A stretch of 64,000 nucleotides of DNA from contig NZ_JACHIR010000001.1 of NCBI RefSeq assembly GCF_014203355.1, positions 868,001 to 932,000 on the forward strand. The letters are read 5' to 3'. This DNA comes from Kutzneria kofuensis. GTDB taxonomy: Bacteria > Actinomycetota > Actinomycetes > Mycobacteriales > Pseudonocardiaceae. Position numbers and translations under genes: made by a program. Shown here one piece after another: positions 2,254-63,147 of this stretch. The notes below the pieces were generated by a model. It was not told the DNA's origin. It did no database searches and saw nothing but the letters and a program-made list of their open reading frames with translations. Numbering within the stretch: the first letter of the stretch is position 1; every line of letters begins with the position of its first letter.

Positions 2254-2706
2254 ATGAGGGCGTGGTTGCTACGCGGGCTGGTGTTGGCCGTGGTGCACGC
2301 GGCGGTGCAGACGGGCGAGGCGTGGGTGCGCGCCGGCGATCCGACCGCGGTCGGCTGGCTGCGGCCGACGGCACTGGGCCTGCTGGTGGGCGTCGCCGTG
2401 CTGTGGTCCGGCATCGACGGTTGGCTGGGCCGCGAGGGTCGCGGCATGGTGTGGTTCTTCAGCGCCCTGGTGGCCGGCCCGGTCGGCGGTGTGCTCGGGG
2501 TCATCGGCCAGGGCGTGTTCGTGGACGACACGGGCGCCGAGGCGCTGCCGGTGGCGATCACCGGCGGGGCCGCGTTCATCGCGCTGCTGGTGCTGGTCCC
2601 CGCCGGTGTCGGCCTGCTCATCGGACGGCTGGTGACCGCTACCCGAGCAGCGGATTCAGCACCAGCCACGCCTCCCACGCCCGTGTCACGCCGAACTGCG
2701 CGTTGA
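2254..2706 (+). CDS. B-4DMT family membrane protein (Rv2536-like)
   Basis: A 150-residue protein with four hydrophobic segments (about 5-22, 40-58, 65-88 and 108-132) and a Thr/Pro/Arg-rich tail, fitting the actinobacterial B-4DMT family of half-size drug/metabolite-transporter-like proteins. Its substrate is unknown. Start chosen at MRAWLLRGLV because the first helix begins there. The position and + orientation between aroQ and pepQ match Rv2536 of M. tuberculosis, which supports the assignment. Its 3' end overlaps the convergent gene by 68 bp. Confidence 0.75.
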   Translation: MRAWLLRGLVLAVVHAAVQTGEAWVRAGDPTAVGWLRPTALGLLVGVAVLWSGIDGWLGREGRGMVWFFSALVAGPVGGVLGVIGQGVFVDDTGAEALPVAITGGAAFIALLVLVPAGVGLLIGRLVTATRAADSAPATPPTPVSRRTAR

Positions 2707-3325
2707 ACCGGAGCGCGGCGCGCACGTCGTCGGGCGAGGCGCCGCCGCGCAACGCTCGGTCGACGTGGATGCGGAAGGTGTCGCCGAGAGTCCCGTAGTG
2801 AACGTCGACGCTGAGGCTGACCAGGCCGCGCTCCCGCTCGCTGAGCGTCCCCGGCCCGTTCCCGCCGCGCATCCGTGACTGGAGATCGAAGTACTCCGCG
2901 AAGTGCGGATCCATGCCCGCCAACCGATCCCGGACCGGCGCCGGCAGCGGGCTCGGCGCCGCGTCCGGGCCGGTGCTCACCAGCGACTCGTCCAGCGCCG
3001 CGGCCGTCGTCGGCTCCTCGGCCAACGCCGCCAGCGCCTCGAACCCGGCCACGGCGGCCGGGTATCCGATGTCGTACGAGACGAAGCGCAGCAGTCCGCG
3101 CAGGTCCTCGACGGTCACGCCGGCCCGCAGCCCGGCCCGGACGTGCGCCTCGAACGCCAGCCCGAGGCTGCCCTGGCAGATGTCGCCGACCACGGCCAGG
3201 AACGTCTTCTCCCGGTCGGTCAGTTCCGCGACCGACCGGGCGTGCCCGGCGCTGGCCAGCGTCATCTGCGCGAACACGGGGTCCAGTTGCCGGAGTCGGT
3301 CCCCGGCGGTCACCGCTGAAGTCAT
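2639..3325 (-). CDS. Carboxymuconolactone decarboxylase-like / AhpD-fold protein
   Basis: 228 residues with two tandem CMD-like helical modules (about 35-110 and 150-225). The first resembles LTDREKTFLAVVGDICQG and the second LSERERGLVSLSVDVHYG. Neither shows a clear CxxC peroxidatic pair, so a peroxidase role is not supported; the family also includes decarboxylases and lactonases. GGGAGG lies 7 nt before the ATG. The divergent TetR gene and the palindromes between them suggest this gene is the target of that repressor. Confidence 0.75.
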   Translation of the reverse strand: MTSAVTAGDRLRQLDPVFAQMTLASAGHARSVAELTDREKTFLAVVGDICQGSLGLAFEAHVRAGLRAGVTVEDLRGLLRFVSYDIGYPAAVAGFEALAALAEEPTTAAALDESLVSTGPDAAPSPLPAPVRDRLAGMDPHFAEYFDLQSRMRGGNGPGTLSERERGLVSLSVDVHYGTLGDTFRIHVDRALRGGASPDDVRAALRFNAQFGVTRAWEAWLVLNPLLG

Positions 3326-3349
3326 GACAGGTCCTCCCCTGAATTCACA

Positions 3350-3375
3350 CTACAGCTGTAGCGCTACAACCGTAG
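3350..3375. promoter_or_regulatory. Paired TetR operators in divergent promoter
   Basis: Two copies of CTAC-N4-GTAG lie 14 bp apart: CTACAGCTGTAG at 3350-3361 (a perfect palindrome) and CTACAACCGTAG at 3364-3375. They sit between the divergent CMD-like and TetR genes. TACAAT at 3393-3398 is a good -10 for the TetR gene and would start transcription at or next to its ATG (3408), implying a leaderless mRNA. Autoregulation plus control of the CMD gene is inferred. Confidence 0.65.
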
Positions 3376-3407
3376 CGTCAAGTTGGCCCGGATACAATCG
3401 CCGGATC

Positions 3408-4019
3408 ATGGAGACGGGCACCCGGAAGCCGAACGCGCGCGGTCGCGGCGACCAGCTGCGCGAGGAGATCGTCACGGCGGCGACCGCGATGCTGGCGGAG
3501 CTCGGTGATGACGAGGCGCTGTCGCTGCGGGCCGTGGCCCGCACGGTGAAGATCGCCGCCACCTCCGTCTATCTGCACTTTCCCGACCGGGACGCGCTGG
3601 TGCTCGCGGTGATGGAGCGGTTCAACGGGCTGATGGTCGAGGCCGGCAGCCGCGGCGAGGCGGCGGGCACGGACGCGGCCGCGCGGCTCAGGGGCTGGAT
3701 CTGCGGCCTGATCGACTGCGCCCTGCGCAACCCGGGCCTGTACAAGGTGATGCACGAGAGCCACGTCAACCGCGGCATCGGCATGCCCTTCAAGCAAACG
3801 ATCGGCGTGCGGACGACCGAGGCCGTGCGGCGCTGCCTGGACGAGGGGCTCGCGCCGGCCGGCGACGCCGCCACCATCGCGGCCGACCTGCGCGCGGCCG
3901 TCACCGGCATGCTGTCGCTGCGGATCAACGAGCCGGACCTGCCCTGGCCGCCGGTCGACGAGCAGGTCGACCGGTTTCTGACAAAGCTGGTCGGGTTGTC
4001 AGTTCCCGCGGAAGGCTGA
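3408..4019 (+). CDS. TetR/AcrR family transcriptional regulator
   Basis: 203 residues. The N-terminal helix-turn-helix is clear (residues 17-62: EEIVTAATAMLAEL ... SLRAVARTVKI...TSVYLHFPDRDALV). The C-terminal ligand domain is variable and its ligand cannot be told from sequence. It is transcribed away from the CMD-like gene, with two operator palindromes in between, so it probably represses itself and that neighbour. No Shine-Dalgarno precedes the ATG; the -10 TACAAT is 10 bp upstream, consistent with leaderless translation. The 3' end overlaps the convergent lipoprotein gene by 21 bp. Confidence 0.85.
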   Translation: METGTRKPNARGRGDQLREEIVTAATAMLAELGDDEALSLRAVARTVKIAATSVYLHFPDRDALVLAVMERFNGLMVEAGSRGEAAGTDAAARLRGWICGLIDCALRNPGLYKVMHESHVNRGIGMPFKQTIGVRTTEAVRRCLDEGLAPAGDAATIAADLRAAVTGMLSLRINEPDLPWPPVDEQVDRFLTKLVGLSVPAEG

Positions 4020-5486
4020 CAGGTCGCCGCCCTTGGGGCGGGCGTCCCAGTCGGCGTCACTCGTCTCGGTGACGGCCGAGGAGTTCGCCTGGACGGCGCT
4101 CGGCCCGACCGGCCAGAGCTTGCCGTCGAGCAGGAACGCGTACGGTCGGTTCGGCGAGTGCAGCACCGGGGCGCCGGCCTTGATCACCGCGACCACCGGC
4201 AGCGAGTCCAGCCCCGGCACCGGCTTGTCCAGCACCTGCACGGCGATCCGCGCCGACACCGACCGCCGCTCGATCTTCACCAGCCGGTCCCCGTACACCA
4301 TGACGATCATGCGGTCCGGCGACGGCATCGCGACCCCGTCCCCGGTGGCCAACGTCTGGCAGCCGTTGGCGTTGGCGATGTCCAGCCCGAACCGGCTCAG
4401 CCCGGTCGGCCCCTGGCCGTCGTCCCTGGTCGCTCGCACGACGTCGACCGGCACCCGCACGCACGGGTCCTGCGGCGAGGCCGGCGCGTGCCCGTCGGCC
4501 CGGCGCACCAGCCCCGGGCCCTCCTTCCACGGCCCGCCCAGCACGACGTCCTGGTACGGGTGCGTGGTGAATTCCTTGTCCCAGAACGAGATCACGGTCC
4601 CCTTGCCGTCGACCTCGTGCGCGACGGCGAACGCGTTCATGGCGTCCACCCACATCCAGTCGGCGCTGTAGGCGTTGGAAATCGACAAGGAGCGCTTGGT
4701 CTTCGTGCCGGGGACGTCCTGGAAACCGTTGGGCGTCAACGACTGCACACTGGTGGCGAAGTCCGGATCCGGTGACCGCAACACGAACTGCCCCGCACCG
4801 GCGGTGTTCGCGGCCGCGCCGGTGGTGTCCGTGAACATCAGGTAGAACCAGCCGTCGAGATGCAGCACGGACGGCTGGCCGACGCCGTAGGTGTTGGCCC
4901 GCTGCCTGTCCATCGACGGCTGCACGATCGGGTTCGGGTTGCGCTGCCAGGTCACGCCGTCGGCGCTGGTCGCGAGGCCGATGGAGTTGACCAGCGCGCC
5001 GTCGCCGGCCGCGCCGGTGTAGTACATGTAGTAGATGCCGTTGACCCGAATGACGGACGGGTCGCAGGTGTGCATGGCGTCGAAGCCGCCGCCGGACCCG
5101 TGCAGCACGGCCACCCCGTCGGGGAACGGCCCGTTCAGGCTGTCGGCCGAGGCCGTCAGCACGTCGTCGCCGGGCACCCCGACGTCGGGCAGCTGACTGC
5201 ACCACCAGATCCGGTACCGACCGCCGTCGAGCATCGCGGTCGGCGCGTAGTTGTACGGCGCGGCCGGCCCGCCGGACACCAGCGTGCCGGCCCCCTGTCT
5301 GGCGCGGTCGGTGCGTAACGGCGCCTCGGCCGCGTCCGCGGGCGGCTGGTCGGCCCGCTTCTGCACGGCCGTCGGCGTGGTCGGCGCCGGCGCGGTGATG
5401 CCCTCGGCGCTGCCGCAGGCCGTGAGCACCGCGGCCACCGCCAGGTAACCGGTCGTGCTCGCCATGGCCCTGATGGGTCTCGGCAT
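3999..5486 (-). CDS. Secreted lipoprotein with five-bladed beta-propeller (GH43/GH62-like fold)
   Basis: 495 residues. A type II signal peptide ends in the lipobox LTAC (Cys24), so the protein is likely anchored on the outer face of the membrane. After a Pro-rich linker, the domain carries repeated blade-like segments (RYRIWWCSQLP, CDPSVIRVNGIYYMYYTG, GVGQPSVLHLDGWFYLMFTD) typical of GH43/GH62/GH117-type glycosidase propellers. I cannot place the catalytic acids with certainty, so enzymatic activity is inferred from fold only. GGAGG lies about 10 nt before the ATG. Confidence 0.6.
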   Translation of the reverse strand: MPRPIRAMASTTGYLAVAAVLTACGSAEGITAPAPTTPTAVQKRADQPPADAAEAPLRTDRARQGAGTLVSGGPAAPYNYAPTAMLDGGRYRIWWCSQLPDVGVPGDDVLTASADSLNGPFPDGVAVLHGSGGGFDAMHTCDPSVIRVNGIYYMYYTGAAGDGALVNSIGLATSADGVTWQRNPNPIVQPSMDRQRANTYGVGQPSVLHLDGWFYLMFTDTTGAAANTAGAGQFVLRSPDPDFATSVQSLTPNGFQDVPGTKTKRSLSISNAYSADWMWVDAMNAFAVAHEVDGKGTVISFWDKEFTTHPYQDVVLGGPWKEGPGLVRRADGHAPASPQDPCVRVPVDVVRATRDDGQGPTGLSRFGLDIANANGCQTLATGDGVAMPSPDRMIVMVYGDRLVKIERRSVSARIAVQVLDKPVPGLDSLPVVAVIKAGAPVLHSPNRPYAFLLDGKLWPVGPSAVQANSSAVTETSDADWDARPKGGDLSAFRGN

Positions 5487-5557
5487 GCCGGGACGACCTC
5501 CACGATCGGATGACTGCGATTCCCGGCCAGTCTAGGGAATCCGGTCACCCGTGTGGG

Positions 5558-5989
5558 TTACACGTGGTCGGCGACCCACCGCAGCGCCAACGCGTACCCG
5601 TCCACACCCAGTCCGATGATCACGCCGTCGGCCACCGCGGAGATCACGCTGTGCTGCCGGAACTCCTCGCGCTTGTGCACGTTGCTGATGTGCACCTCGA
5701 CCAGCTTCGACGTCAGCTGCGAGCAGGCGTCCCGGACGGCGATCGAGTAGTGCGTCCAGGCGGCGGCGTTGAGCACCACCGGAATGCCCTGGTCGGCGGC
5801 CTCGTGCAACCAGCCGATCAGCTCGCCCTCGGTGTCGGTCTGCCGCACCTCGACGTCCAGCCCCAGCTCCTTGCCGGTGCTCACGCACAGCTCGGCCAGG
5901 TCGGCGTGGGTGGTGCTGCCGTAGATCAGCGGCTCGCGCGCGCCGAGCCGCCCCAGGTTGGGGCCGTTGAGCACGAAGACCCTCGTCAC
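5558..5989 (-). CDS. aroQ: 3-dehydroquinate dehydratase, type II
   Basis: 143 residues, normal for the dodecameric type II enzyme, which converts 3-dehydroquinate to 3-dehydroshikimate (shikimate pathway). The active-site loop [18 protein letters not shown] carries the catalytic tyrosine, and [18 protein letters not shown] carries the catalytic histidine. Starts at GTG, 7 nt after GAGGTGGG. It is the last gene of the aroC-aroK-aroB-aroQ run, 73 bp after aroB. Confidence 0.93.
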
Positions 5990-6062
5990 AGACCCACCTC
6001 GCTAGCGCTCGGAGGGTCTGCGACCCATGTCCCTGTGCTCATTGGTGCCCTCGCAAGCTCGG

Positions 6063-8889
<2,827 letters not shown>

Positions 8890-60787: not shown

Positions 60788-61300
60788 GTGAGCACCGAGC
60801 CGTTCCCGGCCGCACTGGCCGAGGTCGCCCGCGTCGACTTCCCGTACGACAGCGAGGACGACGTCGACTTCGAGCCCTACGGGGAGTTCCGGCCCGACGA
60901 GGACACCGCCTTCTGGCTGCCCCTCTGGACCGGCACGGACCTGTTGAACCCGAAGGACTTCCTGGTGTTCGGGCAGGACGGCAGCGGCGGCTACGTGATC
61001 ATCTGGCTGGCCCGCGCGGGTGCGCCGGTCACCGAGCAGCCGGTGGTGTTCATGGGCTCCGAAGGCGACCACGGCGTGATCGCGAGCGATCTGGGCGACT
61101 TCCTGTGGCTGCTCGCCGACGGCTCCGGTCCGTACGAGGCGGTGTCGTCCCCGGACCGGCCGTCACGGCCGCACCGGGAGCTGACCGCGATCGCCGAGCG
61201 GCACGCCCCGGATGCCCGCAAGTCGGCGGCCGAGGTGATCGCCCTGGCCCGCGAGCGGTTCCCGCATTTCGAGCGGCTCGTCGCCGAGGCCATCGGCTAG
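60788..61300 (+). CDS. SUKH (SMI1/KNR4)-like protein
   Basis: 170 residues from GTG. Acidic N-terminus (DFPYDSEDDVDFEPYGEF), central SUKH-like core (DLLNPKDFLVFGQDGSGGYV, FMGSEGDHGVIASDLGDFLW) and a helical tail. SUKH proteins often give immunity to secreted toxins, but no toxin gene is next to it; lone SUKH copies are common in actinobacteria. Ends 4 bp into the convergent sigma-GH128 gene. Confidence 0.7.
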   Translation: MSTEPFPAALAEVARVDFPYDSEDDVDFEPYGEFRPDEDTAFWLPLWTGTDLLNPKDFLVFGQDGSGGYVIIWLARAGAPVTEQPVVFMGSEGDHGVIASDLGDFLWLLADGSGPYEAVSSPDRPSRPHRELTAIAERHAPDARKSAAEVIALARERFPHFERLVAEAIG

Positions 61301-63036
61301 GCGGCGGCCCGGTACGCGAGGCCGACCTGCGTCGGTTGCGCTCCCGGTTCGTAGAGACCGGTGTCTTCGCCCTGCGAGGGCAGCGCGAACCAGGCGTAGC
61401 GCTCCAGGTACGGCAGCGAGTCCAGCATCGCCGCCGCGTTCGTGACGAACGCCGCCTGCTGGGCCTGGGTCGGGAACTTCGGCGCGCCGCCGAAGTTGAT
61501 CAGCGCGAACTCGGTGAGCCAGACGGGCTTGTGGTAGCGGTCGTGGACGGCCTGCAGGTAGCTCTTCAGCTGGCCGACCGCCGCCGCGCCGAAGTCCGAG
61601 CCGTACCAGTGCAGGGTGATGAAGTCGACCCGGTAGCCCTTGCTCCCGGCGCCACTCATGAACTGGTCGAGCCAGCCGCCGGGCGTGTCGCCGCCGAAGG
61701 CGACGGCCGGGCTGCCCAGGCGCATCCCCGTCGCCTGCAGCTGCGGCCAGAGGTCCAGTGCCTGTGCCGGCGTCATGTTCGCCTGCTGGGCCAGGTCGGG
61801 TTCGTTGAAGCCGAGCAGCTCGGTGCCCTGCTTCCTGACCTGCGCCAGCGTGTCCGCGGTGACGGACTTGGCTCCCCAGATCATCGGCACGTACTCGACG
61901 CCCGGCGGGGCCGGAATCGTGTTGTGGTTGGCGTCCCAGTTGTAGAACCAGGCCGCGCCGACGTCCTTGAGCGAGGCCGTGACGCCGTCGAAGGCCCAGG
62001 CACTCACGCCCTTTCGGGCCGAGGTCTGGGCCGGCTTCTGCTGCGGCACCGCCCTTGTGCTCGCCGCCGCCTTGGTGGTGGTCGTGGTCGTCGCCGTGGT
62101 TGTCGTTGTCGTCGTGGTGGTGACGGTGGTTGAAGTGGTGGTGATCGGCGCCGCGACGGCAATCGGCTCCGGTTCGGTGGGTTTCGGGACGAGCACCGCC
62201 GCCAGGACCGCCACGGCTGCGGCAGCCGCCACCAAGGGCTTCGTCGCGGCGTGCTGCCACCAGCGTCGGGGCGCCGGCGGCGACGAGGTCGGCACCGCGC
62301 CGAAGTCCGGTGGGATCGGCACCAACGGGATGCCGAGCAGCAGGCGCTCCGCCGGCATCAGGTCGTCACGCAGGCAGCGGCCGCAGTCGCGTACGTGGCG
62401 GGCGATTCGCTTGCGCCACAACGGGCTCGGTCGGCCGTCCCATTCCGCTGTGAGGTGTGCCAGCTCCGGGCACCGCACCCTCAACGCCCGCACCACCATG
62501 CGCGCCGCGTCCAGCTTGGCCTTCATCCGCTGCACCCGGACGGCCGTGTGCTGCGGCGTCAATCCCAGGCCCGCAGCCACTTCCGCCCTCGTCAGCCGGC
62601 CGGCCGCCTCCAGCCACCACAACGACAGCAGTTCGCGTTCGTCGTCCTCCAGCCAGCGCGTCGCCTCGACCAGGTCCCTGCGCTGGTCCACCAGGTGCAG
62701 GCGGTCGATCGTCAGGTCGACGAAGTCCGCGCCCGGGTCCGCCACGTCATCCGGCCGCACCGCCGGAAATCCCTCGCCCGTGCGGCGGCGCTTCCGTACC
62801 TCGCGCATTGCCATGACCACCAGCCAGGACCGGAAATGCGCCGGGTCTTCCAGGTCGGGCAGGCCGTCCAGGGCCGCGAGCATCGTGTCCTGGACCGCGT
62901 CGTCCATGTCCGGGTGGCCCGCCATCGCCCGGCCCACGATGTTGTAGACCAGCGGCAGGTAGGTCGCCACCAGCTCGTCGAGGGCGTCCGCGCGGCCCTT
63001 GCGCGCGGCGATGACCAGGTCCCAGTCGTCGCTCAT
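61297..63036 (-). CDS. ECF-type sigma factor fused through a membrane helix to a GH128 domain
   Basis: 579 residues from MSDDWDLVIAARKG. Order: sigma region 2 (about 5-85), sigma region 4 (about 125-180, ELLSLWWLEAAGRLTRAEVA), a zinc-finger-like HxxxCxxC (H214, C218, C221), one membrane helix (about 267-284), a Thr run (299-321) and a GH128-like domain (344-579). GH128 acids are present: E412 (LLGFNEPDL) and E509 (PVWLTEFAL). GH128 enzymes cut beta-1,3-glucan. The layout implies a one-protein sensor: cytosolic sigma, external glucan domain. Release would need proteolysis. Confidence 0.85.
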   Translation of the reverse strand: MSDDWDLVIAARKGRADALDELVATYLPLVYNIVGRAMAGHPDMDDAVQDTMLAALDGLPDLEDPAHFRSWLVVMAMREVRKRRRTGEGFPAVRPDDVADPGADFVDLTIDRLHLVDQRRDLVEATRWLEDDERELLSLWWLEAAGRLTRAEVAAGLGLTPQHTAVRVQRMKAKLDAARMVVRALRVRCPELAHLTAEWDGRPSPLWRKRIARHVRDCGRCLRDDLMPAERLLLGIPLVPIPPDFGAVPTSSPPAPRRWWQHAATKPLVAAAAAVAVLAAVLVPKPTEPEPIAVAAPITTTSTTVTTTTTTTTTATTTTTTKAAASTRAVPQQKPAQTSARKGVSAWAFDGVTASLKDVGAAWFYNWDANHNTIPAPPGVEYVPMIWGAKSVTADTLAQVRKQGTELLGFNEPDLAQQANMTPAQALDLWPQLQATGMRLGSPAVAFGGDTPGGWLDQFMSGAGSKGYRVDFITLHWYGSDFGAAAVGQLKSYLQAVHDRYHKPVWLTEFALINFGGAPKFPTQAQQAAFVTNAAAMLDSLPYLERYAWFALPSQGEDTGLYEPGAQPTQVGLAYRAAA

Positions 63037-63147
63037 CTCACTCCCCGACGCGAGGCGGATTCGTCCGCATGCTCGCACCACGCCCGGGAGTGATCCATGT
63101 GTTCATTTCCACTGGCCCGCTGACCAGCGGATAACAGTTTTCTCTGC

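Follow-up and report, generated by a model that had tools for sequence, protein, structure and literature searches.

Kutzneria kofuensis encodes a single protein that probably acts as a membrane-tethered, one-component ECF sigma factor, with a GH128 domain outside the cell as its sensor of beta-1,3-glucan. The gene occupies 61297..63036 on the minus strand of the window, the 64,000-nucleotide stretch of contig NZ_JACHIR010000001.1 analysed here, and comprises 579 codons plus a stop. Translation runs from an ATG at 63036 to a stop at 61297-61299 with no internal stop, yielding 579 amino acids, and the relatives of the gene are likewise in one frame. An initial annotation, which gave no strand, had read this frame as a single polypeptide carrying sigma regions 2 and 4, a zinc-finger-like anti-sigma motif, a membrane helix, a Thr run and a GH128 domain with both catalytic Glu; our analysis recovered each of these elements.

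Sigma region 2 (residues 22-86; 62779..62973, on the minus strand like all features of the gene given below) matches PF04542 (Sigma70_r2) with an E value of 2.6e-11. Region 4 (about residues 120-175; 62512..62679) is covered by the sigma70-ECF model TIGR02937, which spans residues 17-175 (E 2.2e-17), and is seen in the predicted structure as helices 101-128, 131-144, 150-157 and 161-186; no match to a Pfam region-4 model was listed for the window protein. By PF04542 and TIGR02937 the protein thus has both regions of an ECF-type sigma factor, and the CnrH structure 4cxf also matches its sigma part (E 8.3e-6). The zinc-type anti-sigma motif C189...H214-x3-C218-x2-C221 (62374..62472) is invariant in 20/20 aligned fusions, all of which show the H-x3-C-x2-C pattern and upstream ligand of zinc anti-sigma (ZAS) domains. 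This pattern was found in 58 of the 63 sigma-bearing ORFs scanned, being absent from L004, L005, L006 and both L008 pieces; Pfam zf-HC2 gave no match to the window protein at E 0.1 and only a weak one to L067. The hydrophobic stretch of residues 267-283 (62188..62238; Kyte-Doolittle mean 2.66) has basic residues on its N-terminal side and the Thr run on its C-terminal side, the latter within a predicted extracytoplasmic linker of residues 284-337 (62026..62187). In the predicted structure of the whole protein (mean pLDDT 81.9, pTM 0.48), the sigma and GH128 parts are confident and their relative placement is uninformative; residues 247-334, and so the Thr-rich linker, are of low confidence, and the membrane helix appears as 269-281 with pLDDT below 50.

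This layout resembles that of known fused-anti-sigma factors. According to excerpts of one review, such factors occur in groups ECF48, ECF52 and ECF53 of Actinobacteria, with C-terminal extensions of up to 400 residues, a zinc finger and one or two membrane helices, and are expected to be activated by proteolysis (PMC8999054). The window protein has an extension of about 400 residues, zinc ligands and one membrane helix, and passed the NCBIfam cut-off only for the ECF superfamily. It differs from SCO4117, the studied ECF52 factor, for which the portion available describes a proline-rich region, a carbohydrate-binding module and the proposed motif CSGYN-17bps-SRHA (PMC5826349): in place of the proline-rich extension and binding module it bears a Thr-rich linker and GH128, and its family's promoter signature is also unlike that motif.

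The GH128 domain (residues 338-579; 61300..62025) was identified by profile, sequence and structure alike. The fold, which the initial annotation had singled out as the point to be checked, was found both by HMM (Glyco_hydro_cc, PF11790, residues 357-575, E 1.5e-50) and in the predicted structure, where the GH128 part superposes on AmGH128_I with a TM-score of 0.96 (by target length), an rmsd of 1.5 and 64% identity. AmGH128_I (6uaq) is also the closest solved relative by sequence (residues 338-578, E 6.4e-100); unlike the window protein, its solved chain consists of 263 GH128 residues without a sigma part. The alignment pairs E412 (61801..61803) with E102 of AmGH128_I, by numbering derived from an offset, and E509 (61510..61512) with E199, opposite the Q or A of the E199Q and E199A mutant chains. 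Both Glu are present in 21/21 fusion ORFs and in 28/28 other GH128 ORFs aligned, one short ORF having been left out, and with the fold they place the domain in GH128 subgroup I. In the available part of a report on the GH128 enzyme CBM6E, an Asn-Glu pair, a His-x-Tyr motif and a second Glu are in use (PMC10956234). Matched by eye, their counterparts here are N411-E412, H476-x-Y478 and E509, and all five residues are kept in 21/21 fusion ORFs. The domain is therefore predicted to be a catalytically complete endo-beta-1,3-glucanase. Alternatively, it might sense a ligand other than beta-1,3-glucan, or act only as a binding lectin for which catalysis is dispensable. Two GH128 entries of subgroup VII are indeed titled oligosaccharide-binding proteins, and the glucanase activity of the fusions is a prediction; however, the best match is to subgroup I, with 64% identity to an endo-beta-1,3-glucanase, and the conservation of the five active-site residues likewise speaks for an enzyme, so that we consider a pure lectin or another ligand improbable.

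A scan of bacterial genomes returned 33 loci, and 19 of 60 genomes, that of K. kofuensis included, contained a match. Sorting these loci together with a class-wide draw gave 92 distinct ORFs, of which 21 had both parts, 29 only GH128 and 42 only the sigma part, the last group including the first piece of L008 and distant sigma factors. One of the 21 is the other piece of the split L008 gene, leaving 20 intact fusions from genera including Kutzneria, Actinospica, Actinoplanes, Mangrovihabitans, Rugosimonospora, Kitasatospora, Actinacidiphila and Trebonia, and two from a Frankia-labelled metagenome-assembled genome. A plasmid search yielded 35 records, but in none did the match extend over 80% of the protein.

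That the frame might be two genes with a missed stop, the other doubt raised at the outset, is ruled out by the single frame, by the presence of intact fusions in many actinobacteria and by the dN/dS values of orthologues. The orthologues L041 (G005) and L007 (K. buriramensis) keep a single frame, with dN/dS of 0.09-0.37 in every segment compared; across three Kutzneria orthologues, the ratio is 0.09-0.26 for the sigma part and 0.25-0.33 for GH128. The same data bear on the idea that the protein serves mainly as an anchored glucanase, its sigma part being a decaying passenger. In favour of this idea, the orthologue of Kutzneria sp. 744 (L008) comes in two frames, one of 203 aa for the sigma part (4956-5564) and one of 407 aa for the zinc-membrane-GH128 part (5850-7070), which may be a true disruption or an assembly error. 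Yet in 3/3 comparisons dN is lower in the sigma part (0.033-0.080) than in any of the other three segments, and the upstream signature described below is kept, so that decay of the sigma part is highly improbable.

The sigma, zinc and membrane portion also occurs apart from GH128. It was detected at E 1e-25 or better in 35 of 394 genomes of the class, including K. kofuensis. The outside part of 58 distinct sigma-bearing ORFs (counted without L004-L006 and the two pieces of L008) was GH128 in 20, CAP in 23, AbfB in one and a shared unnamed domain in four; ten had no assignment, among them L071, truncated by the edge of its contig, and L003, which has a BACON match. In a quick tree built from 52 sigma parts, five changes are needed for GH128 and four for CAP, of which well-supported branches force only two and three, respectively; the AbfB form groups with a CAP form there (support 95). 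Thus, sensors were exchanged at least once, and the sigma-zinc-membrane part is a reusable chassis whose relatives bear CAP, AbfB or an unnamed domain. The unnamed domain forms the C-terminal 200 or so residues of L073, L088, L096 and L060, without a Pfam match, and was also confirmed in G114, G357 and G317. The K. kofuensis genome itself holds two paralogues of the chassis, G000:C1:6969100-6969879 (L002) and 6929296-6930000 (L003), one of them short and the other, L003, the bearer of the BACON match; neither has the promoter signature upstream.

When word pairs were counted in the upstream regions of 50 sigma genes, the signature GTTATC-N16-GTCTCC stood out, some 54-131 bp ahead of the start as set by alignment; this promoter signature of the sigma genes is new here. 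GTTAT-N16..18-GTCTCC lies within 300 bp upstream of 24 of the 50 sigma genes, which share at least 45% identity, GTTAT alone upstream of 37, and the full form upstream of none of nine more distant sigma genes; in 200 Markov shuffles its mean count was 0.0. The figure of 24 is no independent test, since the motif was drawn from those very sequences, whereas the genome-wide counts given below are independent. Because the full signature accompanies GH128 (10/20) and other sensors (14/30) alike, it goes with the sigma part. A promoter matrix scored 18.6 or more in 13 of 20 fusion genes; those below were L009, one L015 gene, L095, L097 and three Kutzneria genes with a variant box. In 300 background windows the best five scores were 23.9, 23.5, 19.7, 18.6 and 11.4, and the top four belong to sites of the family type, in L022, L011, L009 and L015. 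The site in L022 (Kitasatospora) is a second copy of the fusion gene's own promoter: near-copies of GTTATC...GGACTCC at 4286 and about 4840, some 550 bp apart, both stand before the fusion gene with a small frame in between.

In 13 genomes the exact signature has nine sites, seven of them before the chassis sigma gene itself, against one for the backwards control. With the relaxed signature, 16 distinct genomes that bear the fusion yield 44 sites, compared with six for the backwards pattern (47 and 7 in 17 genome records before one duplicate genome was removed). Ten of the 44 precede the fusion gene, two precede CAP-type sigma paralogues in Kitasatospora and 32 lie elsewhere. Thaumatin-like proteins act on beta-1,3-glucan, and five of these 32 non-self sites stand before beta-1,3-glucan genes: thaumatin genes in the Frankia-labelled genome and in Trebonia, a GH64 gene in Trebonia, a secreted GH128 with an F5/8-type domain in G331 and a GH55-like protein in G458. 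The last has no Pfam match and aligns at 511 bits to 4pew, a GH55 exo-glucanase listed as 'putative secreted protein'. If glucan genes made up 0.25% of a genome, an assumed share, at least five in 32 would arise with P ~2e-8, for gene categories chosen after the fact. A sixth site precedes a DUF1996 protein (L150, 192-1661) whose other domain resembles glucanase or chitosanase binding domains, making it a candidate glucan-active family. The remaining 26 sites, one of them a repeated low-scoring site, are before other or unclear genes, including DXP reductoisomerase and galactokinase. Four non-self sites in four genomes precede SARP-type (BTAD) regulators (L158, L130, L159, L136), a possible second regulatory tier, and two divergent frames at contig ends behind the signature look by eye like the starts of secreted proteins. 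None of 29 stand-alone GH128 genes scored above 10 with the promoter matrix, yet the one in G331 bears the signature.

Neighbouring frames are shared between the Kutzneria loci and in a few pairs; across genera, the thaumatin gene is the only one named. It adjoins the fusion in three of 13 loci compared, window included (upstream side incomplete in L014, L019 and L024), and all three adjoining thaumatin genes carry the signature on their own strand, that of L009 with GTAAT for GTTAT. The Actinospica thaumatin gene, with this weaker GTAAT site, has a frame that ends directly ahead of the fusion gene, so that the two could be read from a single transcript. Tandem sigma-GH128 genes (2423-4762 and 4881-6971) are found in L015, adjoined by a divergent thaumatin gene, and two Streptomyces proteins (L028, L031) combine a thaumatin domain and GH128 in one chain.

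As a contrast, 16 Streptomyces genomes with CAP or other sensors yielded 21 sites (control 4), 14 before chassis sigma genes and seven elsewhere. The seven comprise three alginate-lyase-like genes, three PATR genes and one CAP gene; no beta-1,3-glucanase was among them. The difference from the fusion-bearing genomes (5/32 against 0/7) is not significant (Fisher P 0.56), and the contrast is thus only suggestive. In genomes with the unnamed sensor, the signature stands before alginate-lyase-like (G114, G357) or PATR (G317) proteins, and no likeness between sensor and target was found at E 1e-3. In G412, the free CAP target shares 60% identity with the CAP sensor on the sigma protein of that genome; in G331, the identity between GH128 target and GH128 sensor is 65%, a value that is not special because GH128 domains in the set are often about 60% identical. 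These pairs, with GH128-sigma before secreted GH128 or other glucanases and CAP-sigma before a free CAP protein, raise the tentative idea that the family comprises modular one-component surface sensors, sharing one promoter code and swapping sensors, in which the sensor would be a tethered copy of an effector under control of the sigma factor. Should this idea, toward which we remain rather more doubtful than convinced, be true, a working enzyme would be the receptor for its own substrate.

In Kutzneria the signature takes a variant form. A predicted autoregulatory promoter, GTTATC-N16-AGTGGA, lies at 63108..63135 on the minus strand; it is kept in 4/4 Kutzneria genes, which retain GTTATCC and have AGTGGA in the -10 place, and another upstream site, GAAC-N18-CGT, is conserved by eye in all four but was set aside. 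At six positions of the sigma part, the four Kutzneria genes all depart from the GTCTCC group; these include A54 (32/32 with R), E79 (24 with Q) and K174 (25 with Q). As these differences represent one event, they are weak evidence of altered promoter reading. The pattern GTTATCN{14,18}AGTGGA has one site in the K. kofuensis genome, the gene's own promoter, and its backwards version also has one. Since the control equals the count, the evidence for this site is its conservation in four species. Across four Kutzneria genomes the AGTGGA pattern has five sites, four of which are the promoter of the fusion gene itself, against two for the backwards version. With a looser Kutzneria pattern, 15 sites were obtained against 5 in the control, 11 of the 15 lying away from the fusion gene; in the K. 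kofuensis genome it found only the gene's own site (backwards control 2).

Glucanase genes offered no further targets in Kutzneria. The K. kofuensis genome has one GH128 gene, the fusion gene itself, five GH55-like matches and three GH64 genes, and the signature preceded no glucanase gene among those checked. GTTAT was absent from all 21 stretches of 900 bp upstream of GH55 or GH64 genes in the four Kutzneria genomes, of which K. kofuensis contributed two of its five GH55 and three of its three GH64 genes. A search for a thaumatin gene in its genome gave no match, and the same search gave none in any control genome either. For Kutzneria, autoregulation is the sole predicted output, and a wider regulon would be extrapolated from other genera.

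These data lend some weight to the view that the protein is a self-amplifying surface enzyme whose sigma part switches mainly its own gene, with few further targets or none, particularly in Kutzneria. The own-promoter share of the AGTGGA pattern fits this view, as does the exact GTCTCC signature with its seven self sites in nine. On the other hand, other genera have the signature before further glucan-active genes, and most sites of the looser Kutzneria pattern lie away from the gene. We regard pure self-amplification as rather unlikely, though clearly less so than a lectin or a decaying passenger.

The likeliest reading is a tethered sigma factor that senses glucan. The occurrence of the signature before thaumatin, GH55, GH64 and GH128 genes favours glucan as the input and glucan attack as the output. 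In the resting state, the sigma part would be kept inactive by the zinc anti-sigma segment fused to it, together with the membrane helix. Beta-1,3-glucan, most plausibly that of fungal walls, would engage the GH128 domain, whereupon the tether might be cut or rearranged and the sigma part freed to start its own gene from the GTTATC-type promoter and, in some relatives, thaumatin-like, GH55, GH64 and secreted GH128 genes as well. The ligand, the proteolytic release and the reading of the GTTATC signature by this sigma factor are inferred from computation, and release in the manner of IutY from the layout. The direct glucan sensing put forward in the initial annotation thus gains support from the genes behind the signature in other fusion genomes, gains none from the glucanase genes of K. 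kofuensis itself, and as an act of sensing stays a deduction.

Several known systems share parts of this scheme. In the SigI/RsgI pairs of Clostridium thermocellum, sigma and anti-sigma are separate proteins, and some RsgI carry a glycosidase domain outside. As in our scheme, anti-sigma factors there control glycanase genes and undergo autoproteolysis on glycan binding; the glycans named in the excerpts differ, being cellulose and xylan (PMC10766802). IutY (ECF243) of Pseudomonas putida likewise joins sigma and membrane anti-sigma in one chain and is activated by proteolysis, but it belongs to a Gram-negative bacterium, responds to the siderophore aerobactin and has no glycosidase mentioned in the excerpts (PMC8999054). 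Closest in layout are ECF52 and ECF53, which combine zinc finger, membrane helix and sugar-active domain, and some of which have predicted glycosidase catalytic and carbohydrate-binding domains, described as not validated in the part of the review available (PMC10766802). The initial annotation was hence right that ECF groups with C-terminal extensions are known; the GH128 input, which it had called unusual, is better seen as a variant of glycosidase domains already reported. The excerpts of PMC10766802 and PMC8999054 name no GH128, no GTTATC...GTCTCC promoter and no glucanase regulon for these groups, and together with those of PMC5826349 they identify no ligand for the actinobacterial fused-anti-sigma groups. 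Our literature searches found no report of a sigma-GH128 protein, its promoter or its regulon among the matches listed, and the portions of PMC8103513 and PMC7406223 seen hold nothing specific to it. Because sensor fold, likely ligand, promoter and candidate targets agree, the question is directly testable with laminarin and a reporter. The fusion may show how soil actinobacteria detect fungi, and it offers a ready glucan-responsive switch.

Beside the fusion gene, a plus-strand frame at 60788-61300 gives a weak SMI1/KNR4-like (SUKH) match below the cut-off; it is convergent with the fusion gene and overlaps its stop.
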